From contig NZ_QJSP01000016.1 in assembly GCF_003217475.1 (NCBI RefSeq), forward strand, positions 1-64,000: 64,000 bases of DNA, read 5' to 3'. The notes beneath the pieces are model-generated. The model was not told the DNA's origin and ran no database searches. It saw nothing but the letters and a program-made list of their open reading frames with translations. Both the position numbers and the translations under genes were made by a program. The DNA is from Williamsia limnetica (GTDB taxonomy: Bacteria; Actinomycetota; Actinomycetes; Mycobacteriales; Mycobacteriaceae). Positions 14,792 through 61,939 of the stretch are shown one piece after another. The stretch's first letter is position 1, and each line of letters starts with the position of its first letter.

Positions 14792-15874
14792 ATGCGAGTT
14801 CAACTGGTCATCGCTCCCCACGACGAGAGCCGTTCTTGGACTGTGCTCGACGACGACCTCGATGTGGTCGGCCCGATCGAGTCATTTTTGGCTCACATGT
14901 CCGCAGTATGCCGGTCCCCCAACACTGTTCGCGCATACGCCCACGACCTGAAAGATTTCTTCACCTATTGCCGGGCATGCGGGCTTGAGTGGGATCGAGT
15001 CAGCCTCGAAGACGTGGGCCGATTCATTCCCTGGCTTGGTCTGTCCGACGAGGCACGACATGGTGGGACAGCGTCTGTTCCGATCCGCGCCGCACGGTGC
15101 GCGCCGGTCACCGTAAATCGAAAGCTGTCGGCGGTGTCGTCTTTCTATCAGTTTCACGGGCGTAACGGTGTCGGACTCGACAAGTCCATGCAGGCCTGGC
15201 AAAGGCAAAGTCAGGTCGCAAGTTCCTGGGCACCGTTCCTCGCGCATCTGGGAAACCATCCCGTTCGCAAACGGGTCATATCACTGAAAACAGATCGGCT
15301 CGGGCCACGAGTTTTGCCGCCCGAGCAGGTCGACGCGGTGATCGGTGCGTGCGTCCGGTTGCGTGATCGGTTCTTGTTTACTTTGCTTCGCACCTCCGGT
15401 TTACGTATCGGCGAAGCGCTCGGGCTGCGGCATGAAGATCTGAACCCTCGACGCTGCGAGGTTGCCGTGTGGTCCCGAGTCAACACCAATCACGCTCGCG
15501 CTAAGTCACGTTCGCGGGTCGTACCCGTGCCAGCGGCGGTGCTTGCCCTCTACAGCGACTACCTCCACGAGGAGTACGGTCCGCTTGATTGCGACTATGT
15601 CTTCGTCAATCTGTGGGGTAGTCCTCGAGGCCAGGCCATGTCGTACTCGGCGATCCACAGTCTGGTGCGGCGCCTCCGCGCCGACACGGGTGTGGCTTTC
15701 AGCCCGCATAGTTTCCGCCACACCTATGCGACCGAGCTGCTGCGCAGTGAGGTGCCCGCTGAAGTGGTGCGAGTGTTGTTGGGACATTCGTCGATATCGA
15801 CGACCGTCGACACCTACGGCCACTTGACTGCTGAGGACACTCGACGCGCCCTGGTCAAGGCAGGTGTGCTGTGA
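14792..15874 (+). CDS. tnpA: TnpA tyrosine recombinase of Tn554 type, 360 aa
   Basis: Site-specific tyrosine recombinase. N-terminal SAM-like core-binding domain about residues 25-150 (NTVRAYAHDLKDFFTYCRA). Catalytic domain 175-355 with Arg in RTSGLRIGEALGL, HSFRHTYATEL, and the nucleophile Tyr in LLGHSSISTTVDTYGHL. Length matches the 361 residues of TnpA in Tn554. GGAGG precedes the ATG. It overlaps tnpB by 4 bases, so the three genes form one coupled operon. Confidence 0.88.
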   Translation: MRVQLVIAPHDESRSWTVLDDDLDVVGPIESFLAHMSAVCRSPNTVRAYAHDLKDFFTYCRACGLEWDRVSLEDVGRFIPWLGLSDEARHGGTASVPIRAARCAPVTVNRKLSAVSSFYQFHGRNGVGLDKSMQAWQRQSQVASSWAPFLAHLGNHPVRKRVISLKTDRLGPRVLPPEQVDAVIGACVRLRDRFLFTLLRTSGLRIGEALGLRHEDLNPRRCEVAVWSRVNTNHARAKSRSRVVPVPAAVLALYSDYLHEEYGPLDCDYVFVNLWGSPRGQAMSYSAIHSLVRRLRADTGVAFSPHSFRHTYATELLRSEVPAEVVRVLLGHSSISTTVDTYGHLTAEDTRRALVKAGVL

Positions 15875-18141
15875 ACCGCGGATCGCTCGCGAGGGCAGAT
15901 GACATGGACAGTCTGACCGCGCGGATCGCGGCAGCGCTGCGCCCGGAGTTCGACCAGGCGGTCATTGTCGCGCCGGTCGGGCATCCGGTGCTGGGTTTGC
16001 CGCCCTGTCGTGTGCTCGGATGCGCCGGCGGTGCGATCACCCGTGCTGGCCTGTGCAAGGGGCACCACACCCGCTGGCATCGCGCCGACCGGCCCGACGT
16101 CGGCCGCTGGGTCCAGACAGATCAGCCGCCGCTTCAGCCCCAGCGGATACTCGCTTCGTGTGCCGTTGAAGGCTGCCGCAGAGGCCAATGCGCCGCGACC
16201 TTGTGCAGTGGCCACTATCAGTTATGGAAGCGAAGTGACCGGCCCAAGCTGGGTCAATGGATCATCGGACAACAACCGCTTTCAGCCTTCCCGAGATCGG
16301 TCTGCGCGATCGGCGATTGCACCCTCGATGCCGAGACCAAGAAGCGACCGCTGTGCCGCAACCACGATCACCGATGGCGAACGAACGGCATGCCACCGAT
16401 CGAGCAGTTCGTCATCGACTGCGATGTGCGCGGCGCGGACATCTTCGATCTGCGCGGCCTGCCTGACCGCCTTGTCCGGGAAATTCAGTACGGACTCCAA
16501 TGCCGAGTCGACGAGAGCCGGCTCAAGACTCAACCGCGGCGACTGATGCCGATGATCCGCTGTCTTAGCCAGATCGGCGCACATTCGTTGCGTGAGCACA
16601 CGATCGAGGAGTGGGACGCGGTTCTGTTCACAGGCGCGAGTCTGGGACGGACCAATTCCGTGATCGCTTTCGTCCGTGACACGCTCGCGTCTCTAGACCG
16701 GCTGCAAGGCCTGGTCGGTTGGGACACCGAGTACCCGCGAGACATCTGGAAGCTCACCAACCTGGGTTTCCCTGCCACCAGGCTCGCGGTGCTGCGGTTC
16801 GATCGCATTCATCCCCACTGGATGCGGGACCTCGCCAAGCGCTGGTGCCGATGGCGACTGTCCACCGGCAGCAGTGCGGGTGTGGTCGCGTCGAATCTGT
16901 ATGCACTGACACGGTTCTGCCGATTCCTCGAGGAAACCGGCAGAGGTGTCCCCACGCCAGCTGCCCTGGACCGGCCGATGATCGAGGAGTACCTCGCGTG
17001 GGTGGCCGTCCGATGCCCGGACCCCAATACACGCCGCAAGGATCTCGGCGGTCTCGCGTCGTTTCTTCGCACGCTGCAACAACACCGGTGGGCGCCTGAC
17101 CTCTCGCCCGGAGCTGTACTTTTCAGAGAAGACTACCCACCGATTCCCGCGCCGAAAGCGCGTGCGCTGTCCGAGTTCGTCGCTTCACAGCTCGAACTCG
17201 AATCCAACCTCTGTCGGTTCGCCGAACCCCGTTTTCGGGTGCTGACCGAGATCTTGCAACGAACGGGACTGCGGGTCGGCGACGCCCGGCGACTGACAAT
17301 AGACTGCATCGACCGCGACCAGCACGGGGCCGCGTACCTGCGCTATCACAACCACAAAATGCGACGCGACGCACGCACACCGATCGACGACGCTCTCGCC
17401 GAAGCGATCACGGCTCAACAGCAAAGAGTGCGCAAGCAGTTCCCGACCGGGCCGATACTGTTCCCGATGATCGTCGCGAACCTAGACGGGACACGGCCGA
17501 TCGACCGGGCTGCCTACGCGCAGAACCTCGACGCGTGGGTATCGGCGTGCGAGATCCGCACCGAAGCTGGCGATAACGTGCATGTGCGTCCACACCAGTT
17601 TCGTCACACGTATGCCACCAGGCTGATCAACAGCGGAGTTCCCCAGCACGTCGTCAAAAAGCTACTCGACCACGACTCCGACACTATGACGGCGCATTAC
17701 GCGCGGCTCTCCATGGAAACAGTGCGTGAGGAATGGTCCAGAGCGACCAAGGTCGACATCCACGGTCAAGAAATCCGCGAACTCGACGGTGAACTCGCAG
17801 AAGCAGTCTGGTTGAAGAACAGTCTGTCTCGAGCGAAGATGGCGCTGCCGAACGGCTACTGCACCCTCCCGCTGCAGCAGACCTGCGAATACGCCAACGC
17901 GTGCCTGACTTGCCCGATGTTCCTCACCACACCAGAGTTCCTGCCACAGCACCGCACTCAACTCATCGAAACCCGGGTCCTGATCGAATCGGCCCGTGCG
18001 CGCGGCCAACAACGCGTGCAGCAAATGAACGAAACCGTCGAGAAGAACCTGCTCAACATCATCGGTACGCTCCAGACCGCACCGAGCACCTGCGCCGACG
18101 CGCAGCGAGGTCGCGACCACAAGGACAACGATGCGCGCTGA
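15871..18141 (+). CDS. tnpB: TnpB tyrosine recombinase of Tn554 type, 756 aa
   Basis: Second recombinase of the trio, GTG start in the overlap with tnpA. The first 180 residues contain three repeated Cys/His units of the type CxxxxCxGxxxxxxLCxGH or similar (PCRVLGCAGGAITRAGLC, ASCAVEGCRRGQCAATLC, and CAIGDCTLD...LCRNH), probably zinc-binding and DNA-recognising. Catalytic domain near 440-615: RTGLRVGDARRLTID, HQFRHTYATRLINS and LLDHDSDTMTAHYARLS. A C-terminal Cys cluster (CEYANACLTCPMF) follows. TnpA and TnpB are both needed in Tn554. Confidence 0.85.
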   Translation: MNRGSLARADDMDSLTARIAAALRPEFDQAVIVAPVGHPVLGLPPCRVLGCAGGAITRAGLCKGHHTRWHRADRPDVGRWVQTDQPPLQPQRILASCAVEGCRRGQCAATLCSGHYQLWKRSDRPKLGQWIIGQQPLSAFPRSVCAIGDCTLDAETKKRPLCRNHDHRWRTNGMPPIEQFVIDCDVRGADIFDLRGLPDRLVREIQYGLQCRVDESRLKTQPRRLMPMIRCLSQIGAHSLREHTIEEWDAVLFTGASLGRTNSVIAFVRDTLASLDRLQGLVGWDTEYPRDIWKLTNLGFPATRLAVLRFDRIHPHWMRDLAKRWCRWRLSTGSSAGVVASNLYALTRFCRFLEETGRGVPTPAALDRPMIEEYLAWVAVRCPDPNTRRKDLGGLASFLRTLQQHRWAPDLSPGAVLFREDYPPIPAPKARALSEFVASQLELESNLCRFAEPRFRVLTEILQRTGLRVGDARRLTIDCIDRDQHGAAYLRYHNHKMRRDARTPIDDALAEAITAQQQRVRKQFPTGPILFPMIVANLDGTRPIDRAAYAQNLDAWVSACEIRTEAGDNVHVRPHQFRHTYATRLINSGVPQHVVKKLLDHDSDTMTAHYARLSMETVREEWSRATKVDIHGQEIRELDGELAEAVWLKNSLSRAKMALPNGYCTLPLQQTCEYANACLTCPMFLTTPEFLPQHRTQLIETRVLIESARARGQQRVQQMNETVEKNLLNIIGTLQTAPSTCADAQRGRDHKDNDAR

Positions 18142-23743: not shown

Positions 23744-24201
23744 CAGTCGGGGCCCTCACAATCTGTTCCATGGGACAACCCGCACAGGGTGTGTCCGAAC
23801 GTCCGGCTCAGGCCCCTTTGGGTAGGGGTCAGTGCCGCGGGTTCTCTTCCATGCACTCGACGCCAGTGGAATGCAGCACCCACGCTACCGGAGTGTGGTG
23901 GCCGAGTGGGGGTTCTGGCAGACCTATCGCCGCCGGTGTCGCACACCGCCCGTTCTCGGCCCTGGGGGCCTCGTCCTGGTGCTGGTGTGCTCGTTCTCTG
24001 TCTTGGTCTGCCTGTCGTGATTTTTCAAGATTGCGGTTGCTGCGCTCCCTTCTGGTCGTGTCTTCTGCCGATGACCTGCCCTTTTGTTCCACAGCGTTGC
24101 TGTGTGGTGTTGAGATCTGACACACCTCTGGCAGATCATCTGAATATGGGGCGGCCTGGTTTCTTCCGACCCGGCTGCGCGCGGGTTATGGTGCTCCGGT
24201 G
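23744..24201. promoter_or_regulatory. oriT: probable oriT / divergent promoter region
   Basis: A 458-base intergenic region between traA and a divergent small gene. It holds several short inverted repeats: CGGTGT-CGC-ACACCG (23934-23948), CACAGC-GTT-GCTGTG (24090-24104) and the dyad CAGAT-C-ATCTG (24132-24142). MobF relaxases recognise a hairpin just before the nick, so either of the first two could mark nic. The dyad near traA may be an operator. No direct homology to a known oriT was recognised. Confidence 0.45.
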
Positions 24202-27200
24202 ATGACCCTGCACGTGCTGCACGCCGGTGACGGCTACAGCTATCTCACTGACCAGGTGGCCAGTGCAGATCGCGAGCGCGAGCGGGGCCAGGAGCTGGCC
24301 GATTACTACACCGCCCACGGCACTCCCCCGGGCATGTGGTGGGGCGATGGGCTCATCGCGCTCGAGGACGAGCGCCTGGCCGGCGGCCGCGCCCACGAGG
24401 CTTTGATGGTCAACGGCACGGTCGCCGAAGCGCAAATGAAGGCGCTGTTCGGGGAAGCGTTGCACCCCAACGCCGATGCCCTGATCGAGTCGATGATCGA
24501 CGAGGGCATGAAGCCCGATGCGGCGATCAAAGCCGCCCGACTGGGCCGCCGGTTCCCGAAGTACAGCAACGATATCGAGCTGGTGAACGCCACGGAGATG
24601 AGCGCGGCAGCGTTCGTCGCCGATCACAAGCGCCGCCCGACGGTCGCCGAACTGCGGGAGATCGAACGTGGCCACGGCCGCCGTTTGTTCGAAGACGACA
24701 AGGGCCGCGCCCCGCTCACCGATCGCGAGCTGGTGTCGTGGATGGCCCACGAGAAAGGCAAAGTGCGCCAGCCCGTTGCGGGGTTCGACCTGGTGTTTAC
24801 TCCCCCGAAGTCGGTGTCGGTGCTGTGGGCGTTGGGTGATGAGAACACCCGCCGGACTATCGAACGCTGCCACCATGAAGCGGTCAACGACGCCATCACG
24901 CACCTGCAGAAGGAAGCAATTTTCACCCGCTCCGGGGCCAGTGGCGAACTGCAGGTCGACACCAAAGGGCTGATCGTGGCGCAGTTCGATCACTACGATT
25001 CGCGCGCCGGTGACCCGAACTTTCATACCCACGCCGCGGTGTCACAGAAGGTCCAGGGCACCGACGGGGTGTGGCGATCCATCGACTCTAAAGCGCTGCA
25101 CCGTGCGGCGGTGGCGCACTCGCAGCGCTACAACGGTGCGGTCATGGACCTGGTGTGCCGCGAGCTCGGCGTCGGCCGCGAGGTCCGCGATATGGGCGAA
25201 GGACGCCAGGCGGTCATCGAGATCGCCGGGGTCCTCCCGGAGCTGCGTGAAGGGTTCTCCGGCCGGCGTACAGCGATCGAGGCCCGCTACGACGAGCTGC
25301 TGCGCACCTACCGCGACGAGCATGGATATATGCCGGCCAAACGCACCATGTACCGGATGATGCAGCAGGCCAACCTCGACACCCGCGAGGGTAAACAGAC
25401 TGGCGCTTCGCTGGCCGAGCTGCGCGTCGGGTGGCGCGATCGAGCCTTGGCGATCGTCGGTTCCGAGCGTGCGCTGGGTCGCATGATGGACCGTGTGATG
25501 GGCCGCGAGAGCGCCGTGGACCGCCCGTTCGAGGGGGTGCAGCCCGAAGCCGAGCAAGTGATCGAGAAGCTCTCGCAGCGCCGGTCTTCGTGGACGATGC
25601 ACCAGCTGCGCGGCGCCGCCGAAGCACATGTAGCGACCGTGGCGTTCGACGATCCAGCCGCCCGCAGGGCCGCGATCGACGCCGTGATCGACCACGCACG
25701 CGGCCAGGTGATCGCCCTGGCCACACCCGAGTTCGCGCCCACCCCGGCCGCGCTGCAACGCGCCAACGGCGAATCCCAGCTGGTCCGCCACGACGAAACC
25801 CTGCTCACCACCACCGCCGTCTTGGCCGCTGAAGACCGGGTGCACGCCGCCGCCGCGACCCCCACCGGGCACGTGCTCACCCGCGCGCATGTCGGGCACA
25901 TCTGCGAGCAGCTGCAGGCCGAGAACGGCCGCGAACTCAACCCCGGCCAACGCGCCCTGGTGGAGCATTTCACCGGCTCCGGTGCGCTGCTCGCCGTCGG
26001 TGTCGGCCCGGCCGGCGCCGGTAAAACCACCGCCATGACCGCCGCCACCCGCGCGTGGGAAGCCGCCGGACACAACGTCATCGCCCTGGCACCGTCGGCG
26101 GTCGCCGCTGAAAACCTGGGCGAGGAAATCGGTATCGACGGCATCACCGTGGCCCGCCTGACCTACCCCTATCGGGGCAAGATGGCCGACTCCGGGATCG
26201 CAGCGGGAACCATCGTCGAGTCAGTTCCCATCGGTCCCGGCACGGTGCTGCTCGTCGACGAAGCGTCGATGATGTGCACCGCCGATTGGGACGCACTGGT
26301 GTCCATCGCGCATGAGCGCGGCGCGATCATCCGCGCCCTGGGCGACCCCGCGCAGCTCGACGCCGTCGAATCCGGTGGCCTGCTGCGGTCCTTGGCTGAG
26401 CACACCTACGCACCCGAACTCGACGAGGTCGTGCGGTTCGGCGATGACCATGTGCAGGCCAAGAACTCGATGGATCTGCGGGCCGGTGACCCGGCCGCCA
26501 TCGACCTCTACGCCCGCCGTGGGTGGGTGCACGATGGCACCCTGGCTGAACTGAAAACCCATGTGGTGGACGACCATATCGCCGACCTCGACGCCGGCCG
26601 AAACAGCATTGTCCTGGCCTCGACGGTCAACGATGTGCGCGAGCTCAACCAAGCGATCCAGTCCATTCGCCGCGCCGACGGTGTCGCCCGCACCGGCCGT
26701 CTGGTGGGGTTGTCCGATCAGCACATGGCCGGCGTCGGCGACCAGGTCGTCACCCGATCCAACAACCGTCGCCCTGATGGCCGCACCAAAGGCGGCACCC
26801 GCCCCGGCTCCTATGTCCGCAACGGCGACGTGTGGACGGTGGTGAAAGTGCACCGCGACAAGACCCTGACCCTGCGCCACCGCGACCACCACGGCACCGT
26901 CCGCTTGAGCGCCGACTACGTGCGTGAGCACACCGAACTGGGCTACGCGATGACCATCCACCGCGCTCAAGGTCTCACCGTCGATGTGACCCGGATGCTG
27001 CACTCAGTCTCGACGAACCTGTCCGGGTTGTACGTCGGACTCACGCGCGGGCGCTCCCAAAACCACGCCTACGTCCCGCTGGATCAGGAACTGCCGATCG
27101 ACGTCGAGAAGGTTCACGTCGACGGCGTGCAGCGCGCACCGACCGCCATCGAATTGCTCAAGGTGTCGGTCGGCCGGGACAACGGTCAACGCACCGCCAC

Positions 27201-28671
27201 CGAAGAACTGCGGACAGCTCTGGCCGCCGCCCACGACCCCGAACGCCTGGCGATCCACTACCACGCCGGGCAACGCATCCTGCGTGACGCCTACCTCGAT
27301 CGAGTCCTGGAACAGGCTCTGCCCGAGACGATTCACCACACCATGCGCGAGGCTCACCCCGACAGCTACTACCGCCTGCGCGAGGTCCTGGTGACCGAAC
27401 ACGACGCCGGCGGACACCCCGTTCATCTGCTGACCGACGCCTTGGGCGATCACCGATCCTTGGCTGATGCGCACGACCCGGCGGCGCTGATCGTGCATCG
27501 GATCAGCGAACTGCGGGCCACAACACCCCTGCCCGCACGGACCGATCCGGACTGGCTGGCGCCGCTGCCACCGCGTCACCCCGGCATCGATGCTGAGCTG
27601 GCGGACTGGTGCGCGGCCGGCGCTGCAGCGCATCAGGATGCGGTCGCGCGTCGCACCGACCCGCTGACCGGCGCAGTGGCCGATTACCGCCGCACCCTCG
27701 CCGACATCGACCGGACCCGCCTCGATACCGGTCTGGCGGTACTACCCGCCGAGGACCGCCCCCAGGTGGAACACGATCCCGAGACCGCCCGGTTGAGCGC
27801 CTTGCTGGGCCGGGCCGAGCGCGCCGGACACACCCCCGACAAAGTGGTGGCCATCGCCGCCCGAGACCTCTACGCGGCTGAGCGCGACATCTCCGCCGCG
27901 GCCATCGCCGACCACATCGAACAGTCCCTGCCGCGGGCGCAGGCAGTGGATCGTCGACGCTGGCTCGAAGAAAACGCCACCGCCGCCCGTCATCTGGCGG
28001 CCGCCCGCATCGACCTGTCCGACCCGCAGCTCGCCGGCATTGTCGACGACATCCGGGACCGCGAACGGGCCACCGGCGAGGCCGGCAAGATGCTGGTCTC
28101 ACGGTGGGTGGCAGGCGTCGCCCGCGACCGCGACGACCCCACGGCCGACCGCGACGCACTGGTCTCCGCGTGGCGCACGCTGCATCCTGATCCCACGCGC
28201 GGGGCTGTCGATCCTGCGGTGCCACCGTGGATTCCAGCGCCCCCGCTTGGCGATAGCGGCGCCGGTGCCCGCTACCAGGCAGTCGCGGACGCCGTGCGCC
28301 AGGAAGGCCGCAGCGTCGCCGAACAACGACCACTGTGGAGTGAAGCGCTCGGTGACCGCCCGACCGAACCCGCCACGCAGCAACGGTGGGAGCAGCTCGC
28401 CGGGCACGTCGCCGCCTGGCGCAGCGAGCACCAGATCGACGTCGACGAGCACCCGCTGGGCTCGATGCCGGAGGCAGGTAACGGTCGCGGCCACTACAAG
28501 AATCTCGAACGGGCACTGAACGAGCACCAACGGGCGATGGCGGCCGAGCGGGAGCACGCGGCGCGGGCTGCAGAGTCCGAACACGAACACGCTCACTACA
28601 ACCAGCTCGACCATTCACGCGGCCGTGAGAACGGGCGCACACATGACCGTGGCAACGGACGGCACCTGTAA
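24202..28671 (+). CDS. traA: MobF relaxase-helicase TraA, 1489 aa
   Basis: Initiates conjugation by nicking oriT and unwinding the strand to be transferred. TrwC-type relaxase domain about residues 1-340: candidate catalytic Tyr in GDGYSYLT (residues about 11-13), and metal-binding His in HYDSRAGDPNFHTH (about 264-277). Helicase part: Walker A GPAGAGKTT at about 601, Walker B LLVDEASMM, and GDPAQLDAV downstream, an AAA_30/UvrD-like RecD-type helicase. The last 500 residues are charged and helical. ATG 24202 is used; GTG at 24199 is immediately adjacent. It is transcribed away from oriT and convergent to the T4SS operon. Confidence 0.92.
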   Translation: MTLHVLHAGDGYSYLTDQVASADRERERGQELADYYTAHGTPPGMWWGDGLIALEDERLAGGRAHEALMVNGTVAEAQMKALFGEALHPNADALIESMIDEGMKPDAAIKAARLGRRFPKYSNDIELVNATEMSAAAFVADHKRRPTVAELREIERGHGRRLFEDDKGRAPLTDRELVSWMAHEKGKVRQPVAGFDLVFTPPKSVSVLWALGDENTRRTIERCHHEAVNDAITHLQKEAIFTRSGASGELQVDTKGLIVAQFDHYDSRAGDPNFHTHAAVSQKVQGTDGVWRSIDSKALHRAAVAHSQRYNGAVMDLVCRELGVGREVRDMGEGRQAVIEIAGVLPELREGFSGRRTAIEARYDELLRTYRDEHGYMPAKRTMYRMMQQANLDTREGKQTGASLAELRVGWRDRALAIVGSERALGRMMDRVMGRESAVDRPFEGVQPEAEQVIEKLSQRRSSWTMHQLRGAAEAHVATVAFDDPAARRAAIDAVIDHARGQVIALATPEFAPTPAALQRANGESQLVRHDETLLTTTAVLAAEDRVHAAAATPTGHVLTRAHVGHICEQLQAENGRELNPGQRALVEHFTGSGALLAVGVGPAGAGKTTAMTAATRAWEAAGHNVIALAPSAVAAENLGEEIGIDGITVARLTYPYRGKMADSGIAAGTIVESVPIGPGTVLLVDEASMMCTADWDALVSIAHERGAIIRALGDPAQLDAVESGGLLRSLAEHTYAPELDEVVRFGDDHVQAKNSMDLRAGDPAAIDLYARRGWVHDGTLAELKTHVVDDHIADLDAGRNSIVLASTVNDVRELNQAIQSIRRADGVARTGRLVGLSDQHMAGVGDQVVTRSNNRRPDGRTKGGTRPGSYVRNGDVWTVVKVHRDKTLTLRHRDHHGTVRLSADYVREHTELGYAMTIHRAQGLTVDVTRMLHSVSTNLSGLYVGLTRGRSQNHAYVPLDQELPIDVEKVHVDGVQRAPTAIELLKVSVGRDNGQRTATEELRTALAAAHDPERLAIHYHAGQRILRDAYLDRVLEQALPETIHHTMREAHPDSYYRLREVLVTEHDAGGHPVHLLTDALGDHRSLADAHDPAALIVHRISELRATTPLPARTDPDWLAPLPPRHPGIDAELADWCAAGAAAHQDAVARRTDPLTGAVADYRRTLADIDRTRLDTGLAVLPAEDRPQVEHDPETARLSALLGRAERAGHTPDKVVAIAARDLYAAERDISAAAIADHIEQSLPRAQAVDRRRWLEENATAARHLAAARIDLSDPQLAGIVDDIRDRERATGEAGKMLVSRWVAGVARDRDDPTADRDALVSAWRTLHPDPTRGAVDPAVPPWIPAPPLGDSGAGARYQAVADAVRQEGRSVAEQRPLWSEALGDRPTEPATQQRWEQLAGHVAAWRSEHQIDVDEHPLGSMPEAGNGRGHYKNLERALNEHQRAMAAEREHAARAAESEHEHAHYNQLDHSRGRENGRTHDRGNGRHL

Positions 28672-28886: not shown

Positions 28887-29501
28887 CTATGTATCGACCG
28901 CCTCTGTAGCGGAATCGGCGGCGCGATGGAATCGGCGACTGCTCTGGTTGTAGGTCCACACCGCACCGGCGAAGTTGACTCCGCTGTCATCATCGACGGC
29001 CTCGCCGCGTTCCATCAGTTCTGCCATGACCACCTCATCGAGGACCGTCACGTCCGTGGGCACAGCCCGGCCGCGCAGGTCCTCGGCAATGGTTTGGCGC
29101 GCAGTGGAGGTCAGCGGCGGCACCGCCCGCGGGCGAGCATTGCACTCGTCCGCGGTGCAGTCGCCGACGGCGGCGTTCGCCCGAATCCGCTCCAGGCACG
29201 ACCACATTTCCAGTCGGTGCCAGACGATCATCTGATCGTGGTAGCGCACCACTTGGCCTTTGGGCGTACTCAACCGCTGATAGGACGCGGTGTGCCCGGC
29301 CATGAGTGCGGTCAGCTCTTCTACCGCGGCCGGGTGGTTTGGCCAGCAGCCGGGCAGTTTGTTGTGGGTGAGGCCGTACCGGTGCCGGAGCCATTCGACC
29401 CAGTCGATCAGTTCATCCCATAGTGCGGCTGCTTCGACGGCATCGAGGTACCGCCAGTTCAGCGGCCCTGGTGCGAACGTCGACGGCGCGGGGGTGCTCA
29501 T
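28887..29501 (-). CDS. DUF4913-family protein, 204 aa
   Basis: Residues 25-110 match the DUF4913 pattern: LWDELIDWVEWLRHRYGL, then CWPNHPAAVEELTAL, then a Trp-His segment and MWSCLERIR followed by two further Cys. DUF4913 genes are typical companions of T4SS coupling proteins on actinobacterial plasmids; function unknown. It starts in an ATGA overlap with the coupling-protein stop, with GGAG before ATG 29501, and is the last gene of the transfer operon. Confidence 0.7.
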   Translation of the reverse strand: MSTPAPSTFAPGPLNWRYLDAVEAAALWDELIDWVEWLRHRYGLTHNKLPGCWPNHPAAVEELTALMAGHTASYQRLSTPKGQVVRYHDQMIVWHRLEMWSCLERIRANAAVGDCTADECNARPRAVPPLTSTARQTIAEDLRGRAVPTDVTVLDEVVMAELMERGEAVDDDSGVNFAGAVWTYNQSSRRFHRAADSATEAVDT

Positions 29502-31318
29502 GCCCATCTCCTGACCGGTGCGATGGTGTCGGGGTCCTCGCCGGTGGACGGGCACACTTTCTCGAACGCAGCTGTCGAGGCTGCGATTTCACGTTTCCAT
29601 TCTTTGCGAGCGAACACTGTGGGCAGGTGCACCAGAAACGGTGCCGCGCCGCGGGTGATCATCAGCCCGTGGTCGGAGTCGAGCTGGCGGATCTCGTGTT
29701 TCTCCAAGACCCGCCGGGTCCGCAAGCGCGGTGGGTGCTGTGGGTCGGTGATCGGCTCGTACTCCTCGATCGTCCCCGACAGCGAGGACAGCTCCTCGAG
29801 GTGGCGATCATCTGTCATACCGGCCAGCACGATCCGGACCGGTGCTGAGTTGATGAACAAATCGCCTTCGGTCTGCCCCCAGCGCACATGCATTTGCGTG
29901 CGGTTGTGTGCGAACGCCCAGATGCTGATGCCCCGGCCGCCGATGTCGTTGATCATCCCCGGCAGGCCCGGGATCGGTGCGACGGTGTTGACCTCGTCGA
30001 GCACCAGGCGGGCGGGTGGATCGAGCCGGCGGCCCGGTACTCGCTGCGAATGCCGGTTGAGCAGGTGGTGCACTTCGCTGGCCAGGACCGCCACGATCGG
30101 TGCGACCGACCCGCTCGTTCCGTCGGAGAGCAGGTACAGCGTGTTCGGTCCCCCGAGCACCAGGTCGGCCAGGTCGACGGACTCGGCGGCCGGGGTGTCC
30201 ACAGCCGCCATCAGGCGCGGGTCAGAGAGCGGCGCGACCAGTGTGGAGACGGCATGGAACATGTCTTCGCTGGAATCGGCTTCGCTCTCGACGATCTGGC
30301 GCAGCTCAGCGGCCCACGATGTGTTGACGATGTCGAGGATCTCCAGCGGCTGTGTGGCCCGCCGGTTGGTCACCCACGCCCGCACTTTTTCGAGTCCGAG
30401 ACCTTCGGCGGCAGCAGCGTAGAGATAGCAGCGCATCAACGTTTGCGCTTTCCCCTGCCAGAACGAGGCATCTTTGGTGTCCCCCATGGGCACTGCTTTG
30501 ACCCATGCTTCGGCCCGCCGGGTGGCCACCCGCTCGTCGGTGCACCCCGACAGCAACGACCACCGCATCGGGTGGGGGTGGCCGATCAGGTTCTCCGGGT
30601 CGAAGATCTCCACGCGCCCCACCGCGGAGCGGTACTTGTAGGTGTATTCGACCAGGTCGCGTTTGGTGGAGGTGGCCAGCAGAAAACCGGGAGCATCCCA
30701 GCAGCGTTGCACCGCCAATCGTGCAGTTTTGCCCGCGCCGGTCTGGGCGAAGCACAGCACACAGTCTCGGTGCTGCAGAAAGATCGGCGATCCGCCGATC
30801 ACGTTGTCACCGAGATACGTTGCCGCCGCCGCTGAATCGATACTCGACGGGCGGCGTTCGGCGAGGGAACCGAAGTCCTGCCGCGCCTTCTCGGCGGCGC
30901 CTTTTTCGTTCATCTGCAACCGCACCAGTTCTCGGTCGTCGCCGAGACCGGAATGTCGTCCGTTCTTGCGTTGCGCTCTGCGTTGGGCGATGGATTCGCC
31001 GACCCCGGACAGTGCCCCGGCGACAACGAAGCACACGATCATCATCAGCCAGGTCAGCACCGGCCCGCCCGGGACCGGTTGCGAGGGCCACGCGGCGGCC
31101 GGATCTGCCGGGGAGGTGAATACGGCTTTGTAGCCGCCGGCCCCGAACGGGCCCGATGGCCAGGCGAATCCGTGTCCGGCCAGCAGACCCGACAGTGCCC
31201 CGGCGAAGGGGATGGTGGCGGTGGCCACGAACACCGCGAGTGCCAGCGGCCACACCCACCACGCGATGATCGGGGTTCGTGGCGGGGTCGGGGTGGGCCG
31301 GGACCCGGGAGTACTCAT
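29498..31318 (-). CDS. virD4: type IV coupling protein, VirD4/TraG-like, 606 aa
   Basis: Hexameric membrane ATPase that brings the relaxase-DNA complex to the secretion channel. Two N-terminal membrane segments (about 21-45 and 90-112). Walker A QTGAGKT near residue 191, Walker B RLVLDEVN near 435, and the conserved IWAFAHNRTQMHVRWG region near 465. TraM/TraD-like C-terminus. The ATG at 31318 overlaps the previous gene by 4 bases; longer readings lie inside that gene. Confidence 0.9.
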   Translation of the reverse strand: MSTPGSRPTPTPPRTPIIAWWVWPLALAVFVATATIPFAGALSGLLAGHGFAWPSGPFGAGGYKAVFTSPADPAAAWPSQPVPGGPVLTWLMMIVCFVVAGALSGVGESIAQRRAQRKNGRHSGLGDDRELVRLQMNEKGAAEKARQDFGSLAERRPSSIDSAAAATYLGDNVIGGSPIFLQHRDCVLCFAQTGAGKTARLAVQRCWDAPGFLLATSTKRDLVEYTYKYRSAVGRVEIFDPENLIGHPHPMRWSLLSGCTDERVATRRAEAWVKAVPMGDTKDASFWQGKAQTLMRCYLYAAAAEGLGLEKVRAWVTNRRATQPLEILDIVNTSWAAELRQIVESEADSSEDMFHAVSTLVAPLSDPRLMAAVDTPAAESVDLADLVLGGPNTLYLLSDGTSGSVAPIVAVLASEVHHLLNRHSQRVPGRRLDPPARLVLDEVNTVAPIPGLPGMINDIGGRGISIWAFAHNRTQMHVRWGQTEGDLFINSAPVRIVLAGMTDDRHLEELSSLSGTIEEYEPITDPQHPPRLRTRRVLEKHEIRQLDSDHGLMITRGAAPFLVHLPTVFARKEWKREIAASTAAFEKVCPSTGEDPDTIAPVRRWA

Positions 31319-31641
31319 CGCAGCTCTCCCTCGTCGATACCGGCGGTGTAGGCGATCTGGCCCCGCACCAGTGAGAGCCAGTGCGCGACCGGCGGGGCTG
31401 CTACGTCGAGTGGGTCGAGGTAACTGGTCAGGGCCCGGTAGATCAGCGCGGCGAGCTGTTTGTCGGTCTGCTCGTCGATATTCGTCCACTGCCGTGGGTC
31501 GCACGAGTAGAGGATCTCGGCGACCAGTCCGTGCTGCGCGGCGGGGACGCCGGTCATGGTCTGGGCTGCTTTGTGGTGCTGGAACTGTGCGCGGTGCAGC
31601 ACTTCTCGCGGCCAGGTCAGGGGCAGTGGGTGGTCAAACAT
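31315..31641 (-). CDS. hypothetical transfer-operon protein, 108 aa
   Basis: Helical 108-residue protein, His/Gln-rich (LHRAQFQHHKAAQTM). Starts at ATG 31641, sharing one base with the previous stop (TGATG), and overlaps the coupling protein start by 4 bases, so translation is coupled on both sides. Family not recognised. Confidence 0.6.
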   Translation of the reverse strand: MFDHPLPLTWPREVLHRAQFQHHKAAQTMTGVPAAQHGLVAEILYSCDPRQWTNIDEQTDKQLAALIYRALTSYLDPLDVAAPPVAHWLSLVRGQIAYTAGIDEGELR

Positions 31642-58133: not shown

Positions 58134-58241
58134 GAAAAAGAACAAGCCCCCCGGCTGGAACCGGAGAGCCTGTTCGAAGTTTTGAGAGAAGAGTTCGCCG
58201 CTCCGCTCTCGATATCCCCGAAGGGACTGTCTTGCGTGACA
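58134..58241 (-). ncRNA. candidate antisense RNA over the rep leader
   Basis: The minus strand carries TTGCAC (58277-58272), an 18-base spacer and TACCCT (58253-58248), predicting a start near 58241. About 105 bases later a textbook intrinsic terminator follows. The RNA would cover the rep ribosome binding site and start codon. The start codon itself lies in the loop of CTGTC-TTGCGT-GACAG, suitable for loop-loop pairing. This is the architecture of plasmid copy-control countertranscripts; promoter strength and existence of the RNA are unproven. Confidence 0.5.
58135..58175 (-). terminator. intrinsic terminator on the minus strand
   Basis: Read leftward: GAACAGGCTCTCCGG, loop TTCCAG, CCGGGGGGCTTGTTC (15 pairs, three of them G-T), then TTTTT. 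No minus-strand gene lies upstream of it within the rep region, so its presence calls for a minus-strand transcript. Confidence 0.7.
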
Positions 58242-59488
58242 GGTCTCAGGGTAGCGCGCACCCTAAGGGGTGTGCAATCCCTGCACATAACGTGTCGGAC
58301 ACAACCTCCGACGTATCACTCGCGCCCCGCCGTTACTGCGGGTCCACTCCCCTGCGCCCGCGCCGTGGCCACGCCACAACTGCCCGCGGCCGCCTGTTCG
58401 CGATCATCGCCCACGCCAGCCCCGGCAAAGACGCCGACTCGATCCTGGCCAAGATGGGCGTGCGCGACAGCATCGCCCTAGACCTCGGCCGCGACGCCTA
58501 CGCCGGTGTTCCGTGTTGGAACAGCGACGAACACTGGATCACCTGGGCAGTGCCGGTCGCCTACGCCCAGTACTACAAGCAGATCCGGCACCGCATCGGC
58601 GCTCACAGCACAGAGCACCGCAAAGACGACATCTCACTCAAGACCCTGATTAAAATCGCCGCTGCACACGCTGTGCGCGCTGACTACGGCACTGGCCGCA
58701 ACTGCCGGCCGACCGTCGACCTCATCGCCGAGATGACCGGCCACGGCGAGCGCACCGTTCAACGTGCCCGCCAAGTACTCCGGCTCATCGGCGTCGCAAC
58801 GGAGATCTTTCGCGGCCGCCAACGCACCCTCAACGAACGCCTCGCTTCCCACCGCGTCGGAAGCAGCGCCCAGGGATGGGCGTCGGTCTACGCGCTCCAC
58901 AGCCCACAGCTTGTGGATAAATCCGCAGGTAACAGTGTCGCGGCACCCCACCTCGGAGAGCACCCTTTAGGGTGCCTATCCCCCCTTGGTAACTACTCAC
59001 TAACCCCCACCAGCACAGCTGGGAAGCTCAAAGGCCGCGCTGCGCGCGACCAAGCTCCAGACAGGACGAGGTGGATCGGGCCTGAACCCGACGAGAAAGG
59101 GCTCCTGCTGGCGTCCAGATGGCGCCAGGACCCACGAACTCCGACTTGGGCCCGTCGATACACCCCAGCCGCATGGTCACACGTTCTGGCTAAACCAGCC
59201 GCCCATGGATGGACCTGCCGCGACCTCAATGCACTGCTCCGCGACTACACGCTCGCCGGCAACGGCAACTGGATTGCAGCGCGTCCACATCGCCCAATCC
59301 CACTGCTCGCGATGATCCTCAATCAGCACGACGACCTGCGCAACCGGCCGGCGGCTATCGATGATGCGCGTGAAGACGAGGCCAACCACCTGCGGATCGC
59401 CGCTGCTGCCTGTCCTCGTTGCGACGATAAGGGCTGGGCCCTCCCCTACTCCGACGTCGCTGTGCGCTGCACACACGGGGCTCAATGA
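58232..59488 (+). CDS. rep: putative plasmid replication initiator, 418 aa
   Basis: Soluble DNA-binding protein with a helix-turn-helix near residues 155-195 (TVDLIAEMTGHGERTVQRAR) and a C-terminal Cys pair plus Cys-His (CPRCDDKGWALPYSDVAVRC), as in several actinobacterial plasmid Rep proteins. TTG 58232 is used because AAGGGA lies 5 bases before it; GTG 58292 is an alternative. Context supports Rep: next to parAB and the repeat array, an antisense RNA candidate over its start, and DnaA-box-like TGTGGATAA inside the gene (58912-58920) and TGTGGATCA just after it (59553-59561). No helicase or primase motif is evident. Confidence 0.6.
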   Translation: MRDRSQGSAHPKGCAIPAHNVSDTTSDVSLAPRRYCGSTPLRPRRGHATTARGRLFAIIAHASPGKDADSILAKMGVRDSIALDLGRDAYAGVPCWNSDEHWITWAVPVAYAQYYKQIRHRIGAHSTEHRKDDISLKTLIKIAAAHAVRADYGTGRNCRPTVDLIAEMTGHGERTVQRARQVLRLIGVATEIFRGRQRTLNERLASHRVGSSAQGWASVYALHSPQLVDKSAGNSVAAPHLGEHPLGCLSPLGNYSLTPTSTAGKLKGRAARDQAPDRTRWIGPEPDEKGLLLASRWRQDPRTPTWARRYTPAAWSHVLAKPAAHGWTCRDLNALLRDYTLAGNGNWIAARPHRPIPLLAMILNQHDDLRNRPAAIDDAREDEANHLRIAAAACPRCDDKGWALPYSDVAVRCTHGAQ

Positions 59489-59577: not shown

Positions 59578-59830
59578 AGTGTTGTAACGTTAGAATGTTG
59601 GAACGCTGTAACATTTTAATGTTCAACATATTGAACACTGGAACGTTGCATGTTTACAATGGCTTAGCGCTGCAATCGCATAACATTGAAAGTGCGTAAC
59701 TGCAGAACGTTCCATGCCTACAAGCCCTGAACGTTGTAGTGTTCAAGTGTTGCAACGCTGGTTCGTTTAAAGCCTGGTTCCGCCAAATGCACAACGTTGT
59801 AACGGCACAACGTTTGACTACTGCAGTTCT
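59578..59830. repeat. octad-repeat array (probable centromere or origin iterons)
   Basis: About 32 degenerate copies of the 6-mer A(A/G)(C/T)(G/A)(T/C)T followed by two free bases, stepping every 8 bases. Examples: AACGTT at 59586, AATGTT 59594, AACGCT 59602, AACATT 59610, AATGTT 59618, AACACT 59634, AACGTT 59642, AACATT 59682, AACGTT 59706 and 59730, AGTGTT 59738 and 59746, AACGCT 59754. The phase slips by one base before 59793 and continues with AACGTT at 59793 and 59809. AT-rich relative to surroundings. Located just before parA, a further three perfect copies follow parB. Confidence 0.8.
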
Positions 59831-59856
59831 GCCGTTACAACTCTGAAAGGACGCCC

Positions 59857-60573
59857 ATGACGTACATCATCGTCTGTCACTCCCGCAAGGGAGGGGTGGG
59901 CAAGAGCACGCTCGCCTACGAACTTGCATGGCAATTGGACGCAGTACTTGTGGACCTGGAGCACGACGGTGGGGGAGTGACGAAGAAATGGGGCGACCGT
60001 CCCCTCGACCGGGTGCGCATCCCGATCTTGGACTCCATCCGCTCCGGTGGGACGCCCAAACCGTTGAAAGGCTTTCACAAACCGCGGTTAATTCCTGGAC
60101 ACCCTGACCTTTACGACCAGGCCCCGGATGAGAACGCCATGGCCGACGCGCTGATGAAGTGGGCAAATGAGTGGGACACCGACTGGGTGGTCGTAGACAC
60201 TCACCCTGGTGCCAGCCCGCACGCTCATGGCGCTATGACAGTCGCCAACATCGTTTTGGCGCCGACGCCGCTGCGCATCTCGGATCTGGATGCGACTGAA
60301 CAGATGGTCGCCGACATGGTGGACTATCCCGTTGTCATTTCGCCAACGATGGTGCCGCCGGTCCCGGCCGCAAACCTCATCAAACGGCTCGAGAAGATCG
60401 TCGCCGGAACACCGGTGCAAGTAGCGCCGCCCATCCCCGAGGCTCGCGCCGTCGGCACCCGAACCAAACGCGTCGCCATCACCTCCGAGGATCCGCCTCC
60501 CAAAGCGCTGGCCAAGGTGGCCACTGCCCTTACTGAAACAGCCGAGTTTGTGAAGGAGTACGTGCGGTCATGA
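59857..60573 (+). CDS. parA: ParA partition ATPase, 238 aa
   Basis: Small ParA of type Ib style, without the N-terminal HTH of larger ParA proteins. Deviant Walker A SRKGGVGKST near residue 10; DWVVVDTHPGASPHAHGA carries the Walker B-like Asp near 112. Binds ATP and nucleoid DNA and moves plasmid copies through contact with ParB on the centromere. GAAAGGA precedes the ATG. It overlaps parB by 4 bases. Confidence 0.9.
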   Translation: MTYIIVCHSRKGGVGKSTLAYELAWQLDAVLVDLEHDGGGVTKKWGDRPLDRVRIPILDSIRSGGTPKPLKGFHKPRLIPGHPDLYDQAPDENAMADALMKWANEWDTDWVVVDTHPGASPHAHGAMTVANIVLAPTPLRISDLDATEQMVADMVDYPVVISPTMVPPVPAANLIKRLEKIVAGTPVQVAPPIPEARAVGTRTKRVAITSEDPPPKALAKVATALTETAEFVKEYVRS

Positions 60574-61052
60574 GCGGTCTCGACGCCCTGAGGCAACAAA
60601 ACAACCGAGGTAAGGGAGGCGGCCGGTCAGTACCGCCAGCACGGCACAAGCCTCGTGAAACTCCTGTGGAGCTCGCACCACCTCCTACTCCCGTTGCGGA
60701 GACGCCGGCCGCGCCGACAACGCCCGCGTCACCGCCCAGAAAAGAACGCGCTGTGTCGCCGCCGACAGCCGCGACCAAAAGCGAGCCAGCCACTGGAGCA
60801 GCAGCACCCGCAACCACCAAGCCGGAAAAGGTTGCGCCGAGCACGATCTATTTCGACAAAGAGTCCGATGACTGGCTAGAGCAAGCGTGCATTATCGGTC
60901 GCCAAGGCCGCCCGAAGATCGACACGCGAAGCGGATTCGTACGGCTCGCGGTACGACTTCTAGCCGAAACCATGTCTCCGGAAGAAGCAGTGGCCCACCT
61001 GCGTGCCCATGCTGACAGCAACACCAACCGAACCGGCCGTCCACGCCTCTAA
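60570..61052 (+). CDS. parB: ParB-type centromere-binding protein, RHH-like, 160 aa
   Basis: The first 90 residues are Pro/Ala/Thr-rich and disordered with a basic start (ParA-contacting tails are usual here). Residues 95-150 have the ribbon-helix-helix order: a strand STIYFDKES, then DDWLEQACIIGR and TRSGFVRLAVRLLAETMS. RHH ParB proteins bind short tandem repeats, matching the octads before parA and directly after this gene. Translation is coupled to parA. Confidence 0.75.
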   Translation: MSGLDALRQQNNRGKGGGRSVPPARHKPRETPVELAPPPTPVAETPAAPTTPASPPRKERAVSPPTAATKSEPATGAAAPATTKPEKVAPSTIYFDKESDDWLEQACIIGRQGRPKIDTRSGFVRLAVRLLAETMSPEEAVAHLRAHADSNTNRTGRPRL

Positions 61053-61080
61053 CGTTTCAACGTTCTAACGTTACAACTAC
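61051..61080. repeat. second octad block, three perfect units
   Basis: AACGTT at 61051, 61059 and 61067, exactly 8 bases apart, then AACTAC at 61075. Same unit and spacing as the large array before parA. It starts at the parB stop codon and lies before the DUF2637 gene, so it could also act as an operator for that gene. Confidence 0.75.
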
Positions 61081-61147
61081 CGCTCGACATAAGTCGGTCC
61101 TGGCGGTGTTTGCCCACCAACCAGGACCTCGACCACAGACAGGACCT

Positions 61148-61939
61148 GTGACCGTGACTACTGACTCTAAACGCCCGCCCATCGAACGGATCGCTGTTGC
61201 AACAGCCATTGCCGTCACAGTTGTTCTGGCCTTGGGCAGCTTCGCACTGAGCTTCTCGGCGCTGTGGGACATCGCTACAGAGATCTGGCCCCAGCGTGAA
61301 CTCTCCTGGATCGCGCCTGTGCTGATCGACGGAACGATCCTGCAGGCCACCATCTCGCTCGTTGCGGCAGCCAGCGATCCGACTCCGGCCCGGCGCCGGT
61401 TCTTCTGGCTCTTGCTCGCCGTGGCCGCCGTCATTAGTATCAGCGGCAACGCATTACACGCCTATGTCACCGGGACCGGGTCACTCTCACCGGTCGCGGC
61501 GGTCATCGGTGGGACGATCCCGCCGGCCTTTCTTTTGCTCTCAACCCACGGCCTAATTTTGCTCATCCGTCCGAGCGCCCGTCCGACACCGGAACCGTTC
61601 GCACACGAGCTATCGAGCGATGTTCTGGCGGCAGAGATCGATGACCAGGACCTAGTCGACGTCGAGAGCAGCGAGGCGCAGCCAGTCGAGGAACGACCCG
61701 TAGGGGAGTACCTCGAACCGGCACGTCACCTACGAGAGCAAACGAACTCCACTACCGAGACCCCGACGATCGCCCGCATCCTGTGGCTCGCAGAAAGTCG
61801 CCCCGCGCTGTCCAAGCGGGCCATTGGGGCCCAGGTGAACGTGCACCACAACACGGTGGCCCGGCTCCTCGATGCGTGGGCCGCCTACGCCCCGGTCTAC
61901 TGGGAAACCGAACGGATCGACGAGCTGGCCCCCGCCTAA
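61148..61939 (+). CDS. DUF2637 membrane protein with HTH tail, 263 aa
   Basis: Four membrane helices in residues 12-145 (AVATAIAVTVVLALGSFALS, LSWIAPVLIDGTILQATISL, FFWLLLAVAAVISISGNALH, AAVIGGTIPPAFLLLSTHGL), the DUF2637 layout with the conserved region around APVLIDG and the helix HAYV. The tail (about 205-255) holds a helix-turn-helix-like segment KRAIGAQVNVHHNTVARLLD. DUF2637 proteins accompany plasmid spread and maintenance genes in actinobacteria. GTG 61148 follows AGGA. Encoded after parAB. Confidence 0.75.
   Translation: MTVTTDSKRPPIERIAVATAIAVTVVLALGSFALSFSALWDIATEIWPQRELSWIAPVLIDGTILQATISLVAAASDPTPARRRFFWLLLAVAAVISISGNALHAYVTGTGSLSPVAAVIGGTIPPAFLLLSTHGLILLIRPSARPTPEPFAHELSSDVLAAEIDDQDLVDVESSEAQPVEERPVGEYLEPARHLREQTNSTTETPTIARILWLAESRPALSKRAIGAQVNVHHNTVARLLDAWAAYAPVYWETERIDELAPA

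Follow-up and report, generated by a model that had tools for sequence, protein, structure and literature searches.

A tandem array of about 30 octads directly upstream of parA in Williamsia limnetica is very probably (at a probability of roughly 0.9) the centromere, parS, of a type I partition system with a ribbon-helix-helix (RHH) ParB. This is the best reading because of the periodicity of the array, its conservation together with parAB, the layout of the locus and the predicted RHH-like fold of the ParB C-terminal domain. The locus combines a short ParA with a Walker ATPase, a parB gene directly downstream and conserved tandem repeats beside the operon, as type I systems do. A second, short run of octads follows parB, and the arrays flanking parAB probably serve as operator as well as centromere. 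Coordinates refer to the window, which is the whole stretch of DNA analysed, the first 64,000 nucleotides of a contig of 124,697 bp; the arrays, parA, parB and their immediate neighbours all lie on its forward strand.

The octad array

The main array (parS-L) occupies positions 59578–59792 and consists of 27 units in register, each an AACGTT core followed by two free bases. A slip of −1 base at 59793 changes the register, and register analysis places three further octads at 59793–59816, where the units starting at 59793, 59801 and 59809 match the core at 6, 4 and 6 of 6 positions. From 59817 to 59856 the sequence reads as a weak array tail and a leader, with a Shine-Dalgarno-like GAAAGGA before parA. 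A preliminary description of this DNA had counted about 32 units with a single one-base slip near 59793; the array and the slip both stand, while the count comes to about 30, the stretch 59817–59830 being weak.

That description had proposed lag-8 autocorrelation against shuffled controls as a check, and the result upholds the array as a real tandem repeat. Between 59578 and 59830 there are 100 matches at lag 8 against 61.9 ± 7.2 in dinucleotide shuffles (z 5.3), a value reached by none of 2000 shuffles, and lags 16, 24, 32 and 40 are likewise never matched in 2000. Across the contig, the array's identity at lags 8, 16 and 24 (0.418) is equalled by none of 12,445 segments of 253 bp, and the eleven top-scoring segments all overlap the octad array. 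Lag 7 is not raised over the same interval (z 0.9, dinucleotide shuffles), which agrees with the earlier statement that the period differs from 7-bp heptads and leads to rejection of a heptad array of the pSM19035 type.

The register that starts at 59578 is well defined: 16 of its 27 hexamers match AACGTT at no fewer than 4 of 6 positions, against counts of 0, 0, 0, 0, 0, 0 and 3 per 26–27 hexamers in the seven other phases. Octad positions 1 to 8 carry 1.65, 0.70, 0.41, 0.41, 0.36, 1.02, 0.12 and 0.02 bits. The strongest are position 1 (A in 28 of 30 units) and position 6 (T in 22 of 30), and the low values at positions 7 and 8 bear out the claim that the last two bases are unconstrained. The AACGTT core is a palindrome, as expected for the site of a symmetric dimer. 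Degenerate units are common, 11 of 30 matching the core at only 1–3 of 6 positions and many of the central octads being among them, and the GC content of the array is lower than that of the window (0.43 against 0.65).

The preliminary description, which placed the octads next to parAB, missed a second run after parB. This short array (parS-R, 61051–61077, 3.4 copies) reads AACGTTTC AACGTTCT AACGTTAC and starts within the parB stop codon, which it overlaps. In a four-unit score the main and downstream arrays are joint best on the contig at 21 of 24, and the next score elsewhere is 15; the lag-8 signal of the 150 bp after parB is not significant by itself, 103 of 300 shuffles being as high. Beyond parS-R lies a hairpin, GGTCCTGG...CCAGGACC (61096–61128), within an 86-nt fold of −29.6 kcal/mol (z −2.35). 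It is a possible end of the parAB transcript, and inverted repeats resembling it are visible by eye in the Gordonia relatives. No T-run terminator was found after parAB, and no RNA family between 57000 and 64000 reaches the Rfam gathering scores. The following gene (61106–61939, start codon uncertain) encodes a DUF2637 protein (PF10935, 4.7e-09), a frequent neighbour with tblastn matches in 14 of the loci examined.

Elsewhere on the contig, a scan of ten large ORFs identifies a phage-type integrase (15871–18141), a TrwC-type relaxase (24199–28671) and a TraG/TraD-type coupling protein (29498–31504). With these three genes, a mobile plasmid, or an element resembling one, is the probable nature of the replicon; the contig ends do not overlap in a way that would show a circle.

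ParA and ParB

The parA gene (59857–60573) encodes a 238-residue Walker-type ATPase (KGGVGKS) with no added N-terminal domain. The protein matches PF13614 from residue 3–4 onwards (2.2e-07, 31.5 bits against a cut-off of 27), and its family profile finds ParA/Soj structures in the PDB (best 2.6e-09). It is 57–72% identical to ten aligned plasmid or genome homologues, and homologues in this range occur on plasmids of Rhodococcus, Prescottella, Gordonia, Mycobacterium, Mycolicibacterium and Mycobacteroides. Among sampled genomes parA relatives are rare: with the window's own genome counted each time, they are present in one of nine genomes of the genus (E ≤ 0.001) and in 11 of 401 drawn from the family (E ≤ 1e-50). 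A first scan of genome contigs with a single query sequence gave no match, and tblastn against 50,697 phage records gave none for ParA (E ≤ 1e-3), nor did ParB match the phage records.

The parB gene (60570–61052) overlaps parA by 4 bp, and some overlap of the two genes recurs in the loci with full parA under a longest-ORF rule. Its 160-residue product is predicted to consist of an N-terminal helix, a Pro/Ala-rich linker and a C-terminal DNA-binding domain. The relatives share an N-terminal GLDxLxxxR...PPPRH, a variable Pro/Ala-rich linker and a C-terminal SIYLDxxTDxxLExVRxAGR...RSAVVRLALxRL, the last domain being 36–52% identical in homologues on Rhodococcus, Gordonia, Prescottella and Mycobacterium plasmids. 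In the plasmid records examined, whose gene table covers protein genes alone and so says nothing about a marked centromere, these proteins are annotated "hypothetical protein" or left unannotated.

The full-length AlphaFold2 model of ParB is poor (mean pLDDT 59) and its structural matches are uninformative (best Z 2.7), which led to a separate model of the C-terminal domain. This second, confident model (mean pLDDT 85) has an extended, strand-like N-terminal segment followed by three helices; the predicted RHH domain spans 60831–61034 and opens with the extended STIYFD. Its structural matches, though weak, lean towards RHH proteins: they include the RHH DNA-binding domain of PutA (Z 4.7, 2.0 Å over 43 residues) and the RHH domain of PrpA (Z 4.5, 4.8 Å over 51 residues), ranked behind TTHA0139 (Z 5.8, 4.0 Å over 66). 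All have Z below 8, a range where a common arrangement can suffice. Foldseek gave no match for the domain at E ≤ 0.001. By sequence, the best solved structures for ParB are TTHA0139 (0.0088) and Lin2189 (0.024). The ParD antitoxin family TIGR02606 of NCBIfam matches 3 of 17 ParB members (best 2.1e-06). For Pfam RHH_1 there are matches in 6 of the 17, the best E being 0.0067; equally strong matches in one or two members involve the unrelated families ParD (0.0014), HTH_32 (0.0024), TSCPD (0.0026) and RepB_primase_C (0.0044). The ParB encoded in the window is itself without a match to any RHH family or other informative family. The RHH fold is accordingly graded as likely rather than proven, since both family and structural matches are weak. 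A partition system with a helix-turn-helix/CTPase ParB is rejected, because a profile search finds no ParB-CTPase domain in ParB or 12 aligned relatives; HTH_32 is matched weakly by one of the 13 sequences (0.012).

Conservation of the octads

Conservation was assessed in loci whose ParA is about 57% or more identical to that of the window, by scoring lags 8, 16 and 24 together over the 400 bp that precede parA against 300 dinucleotide shuffles. In all 19 such loci, the window included, no shuffle reaches the observed value, with z from 3.2 to 26; near-duplicates within this set are L003/L013 (98% over 701 bases) and L007/L022 (identical over 2 kb). Three loci were left out, one because the parA match starts at residue 16 (L012) and two for having less than 100 bp upstream (L006 and L023). 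In 18 of the 19 loci the leading period is 8 or twice 8; the exception, L017, is led by periods 12 and 6. Seven loci from another collection, ranked without shuffles, have period 8 at the top in six and in second place in L033; within this set L032 repeats L010 and L036 repeats L005. Directly 3' of parB, octads are detected in 12 of the 19 loci at no more than 5 of 300 shuffles. The window is among the seven that fail this test, and in most of the seven the octads are visible by eye. The earlier proposal to look for conserved octads in related plasmids is thus answered positively, and octads beside parAB in 19 loci, with a predicted RHH-like C-terminal domain, support its claim of a centromere served by the ParB encoded at 60570.

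Farther afield the signal is mixed. The M. avium plasmid pMA100 reaches z 4.0 at lag 8, with lag 12 stronger still. Under mononucleotide shuffles, two distant relatives give a positive result, L069 (0 of 300, z 7.1) and L068, which repeats L035; L070 and L071 are marginal (4 and 7 of 300) and L072 has no period-8 signal (76 of 300 as high). Octads are absent from a Nocardiopsis locus with a 43% identical ParA and a neighbour annotated as a ParB/RepB/Spo0J protein, where 239 of 300 shuffles equal the observed value. One locus, L009, carries the same octads and parAB within a contig of 4.43 Mb, perhaps as an integrated plasmid. In a Mycobacteroides chelonae plasmid (L019, 2655–2958) the octad array has turned into an almost perfect satellite of 16 bp with 19 exact copies of GTTTGATCGGTACAGC. 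Finally, a Mycobacterium intracellulare plasmid (L067, 246–445) has a different period-8 array beside a different ParA (z 6.2, 0 of 300 shuffles).

The octad cores vary: AACGTT in the window, TCGAGT in phage RedRock, an ACGT type in L067 and possibly ATGC-like cores in the marginal L070 and L071. A tentative generalization, more doubtful than not, is that the 8-bp step could be a geometric rule shared by many actinobacterial small-ParB centromeres, with the pitch of the ParB coat conserved while core and ParB diverge, and with a readable specificity switch in which Lys instead of Pro at one strand position of ParB accompanies G-C instead of A-T in the half-site. The ParA of L065 itself, which has no period 8 upstream (z −1.2), counts against such a rule. 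At the third position of the predicted ParB strand (VAPSTIYFD in the window), the 13 loci with Lys or Arg have a mean G-C half-site fraction of 0.56 and the nine with other residues have 0.27, with A-T half-sites; this Lys/Pro correlation is post hoc, ignores relatedness, has exceptions in L035, L019 and L021, and includes loci with only 2–4 sites.

Recognition of the octads supplies both the ParB and the centromere of these plasmids. Incompatibility among Gordonia, Rhodococcus and mycobacterial plasmids could become predictable from the core sequence, and the arrays of this one family, naturally varied in length and core, offer a good test set for the assembly of RHH-ParB coats and for changes in their specificity.

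Centromere, operator or origin

That the array is a low-complexity or chance periodicity without function is a negligible prospect: its degeneracy and low GC content would fit, yet none of 2000 shuffles reproduces it, its period and core recur in other plasmids, and the shuffles, the 19-locus test and the contig-wide comparison together refute it. A more serious alternative, though an improbable one, makes the array solely the operator of parAB and puts the true centromere elsewhere. The array does end close to where parA begins. Of 26 loci, seven (L010/L032, L011, L016, L031, L034 and L060, all of mycobacterial type) have a TATAAT −10 box within the last octads, 6–7 nt ahead of the parA start, which is what an operator would show. 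This position suggests a leaderless parA promoter shut by ParB in these loci; the window has no TATAAT before parA, and its two promoter-like matches sit inside the array. Thirty units far exceed the needs of an operator, however, and a second array lies after parB, away from the parA promoter. Moreover, no other comparable octad run was found on the contig beyond the arrays flanking parAB, and both arrays of RedRock are parS loci recognised by ParB (PMC7157519).

The preliminary description also suggested that the array might double as an origin, the octads then being iterons of the adjacent Rep, and this too is very unlikely. The rep-like gene (58331–59488, start uncertain), a neighbour outside the centromere, stops only 90 bp before the array. 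Its product has matches in 218 plasmid records (41–45% identity in the 15 of 218 listed) and is 36% identical to the product of a gene annotated as replication protein in NZ_CP046102. A rep gene also precedes octads and parA in Gordonia pG135 (L063) and pCP113 (L074, L076) and, across a 1.7-kb gap, in the viral contig L060, weak rep-like matches (25–33%) occur in L016, L031, L032 and L035/L068, and the array's GC of 0.43 would suit an origin. Against this, all five loci with a rep homologue (36–45%) and without this parA in the stretch examined (L064, L065, L066, L073 and L075) have no octads; a sixth rep locus, L067, has the different period-8 array that lies beside its own, different ParA. 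A rep match occurs in only 6 of 31 loci with ParA at least 50% identical over 200 residues, and mostly a weak one, many of these stretches covering 1.5 kb on each side only; octads are, furthermore, present downstream of parB. A 38-bp non-coding element upstream of rep, CCCCGAAGGGACTGTCTTGCGTGACAGGTCTCAGGGTA (58216–58253), is common to four other plasmids, in 4 of 9 other rep loci, and is itself a candidate origin or RNA element. It is identical in L073, L074 (Gordonia pCP113) and L075, has three differences in pG135 (L063) and was not found in the remaining 5 of the 9, and three Rhodococcus plasmids share without change a 39–42 bp segment spanning it. The element contains the inverted repeat CTGTC-TTGCGT-GACAG and has no Rfam match. 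As far as the compared sequences tell, the octads track parAB and not the neighbouring rep, so that the origin is rejected as the main reading and the suggested double role is not supported.

A model for partition

With the array read as a centromere, ParB would cooperatively coat, in the form of dimers, the approximately 30 contiguous octads upstream of parA as well as the 3–4 octads downstream of parB, each palindromic 8-bp core probably taking up one dimer. The coated DNA would recruit nucleoid-bound ParA-ATP through the basic, flexible N-terminal tail of ParB, and the coat would stimulate the ParA ATPase and move plasmid copies apart. Binding at the upstream array would probably also repress parAB, because this array reaches almost to the parA start. 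For binding, repression, ATPase stimulation and partition alike, the model is inferred from RedRock, pSM19035 and TP228. In pSM19035 the ParA ATPase is fully activated only by four or more contiguous repeats, and spreading from parS is said not to occur with RHH-ParB proteins (both from PMC9499535). For a system that does not spread, a long octad array would be one way to gain ParB copies.

Comparison with known partition systems

In TP228 the tetramer boxes and their spacers make up an 8-bp step, and the repeats of pCXC100, from an actinobacterial host, are about 9 bp long. The pCXC100 ParAB system of Leifsonia resembles the present locus in being of type Ib with a centromere of direct repeats only (PMC5016525). 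TP228 ParF-ParG-parH likewise pairs a ParA with an RHH protein that has flexible N-terminal tails, uses an array of short boxes with spacers and has a ParG that is also a repressor; it differs in its degenerate tetramer boxes, its A+T-rich spacers and its E. coli host (PMC7308502). The pSM19035 omega/delta system shares an RHH-ParB, predicted in the window, on contiguous short repeats, but its period is 7 bp, its iterons are spread over three distinct parS sites (9, 7 and 10 of them), and its partition genes are transcribed separately (PMC5016525).

The literature searched, including the available parts of PMC5434932 and PMC6794481, yielded no account of octad centromeres in the Rhodococcus/Gordonia/Mycobacterium plasmid family; subscription papers were mostly outside this search, which makes it weak evidence of absence. 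Tandem repeats beside parA had been postulated as the centromere of a related phage in 2013 (PMC3585329), and in mycobacteriophage RedRock each of the two parS loci presents eight 8-bp repeats, which ParB recognises (PMC7157519). The preliminary description thus overstated the novelty of the array, since RedRock already has parAB with two parS loci of 8-bp repeats.

The likeness to RedRock is close in layout. In the RedRock record, as in the window, 8-bp direct repeats lie on either side of an overlapping parA-parB: TCGAGTNN sites flank the gene pair and period 8 tops both flanks. Both systems have a small ParB, that of RedRock matching RHH_1 below threshold (15.9 against 20.5 bits). RedRock ParB reportedly represses parAB via parS-L (Dedrick et al., 2016). 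The differences are in sequence and scale. The core is TCGAGTNN in RedRock and AACGTTNN in the window, the repeats number eight and eight against about 30 and 3–4, and the ParB proteins of 89 and 160 residues have no detectable similarity (hhalign probability 0.1). By analogy, the window locus would work as RedRock's does, while it is placed outside the RedRock sequence family because the motif and array size differ and ParB similarity is undetectable.
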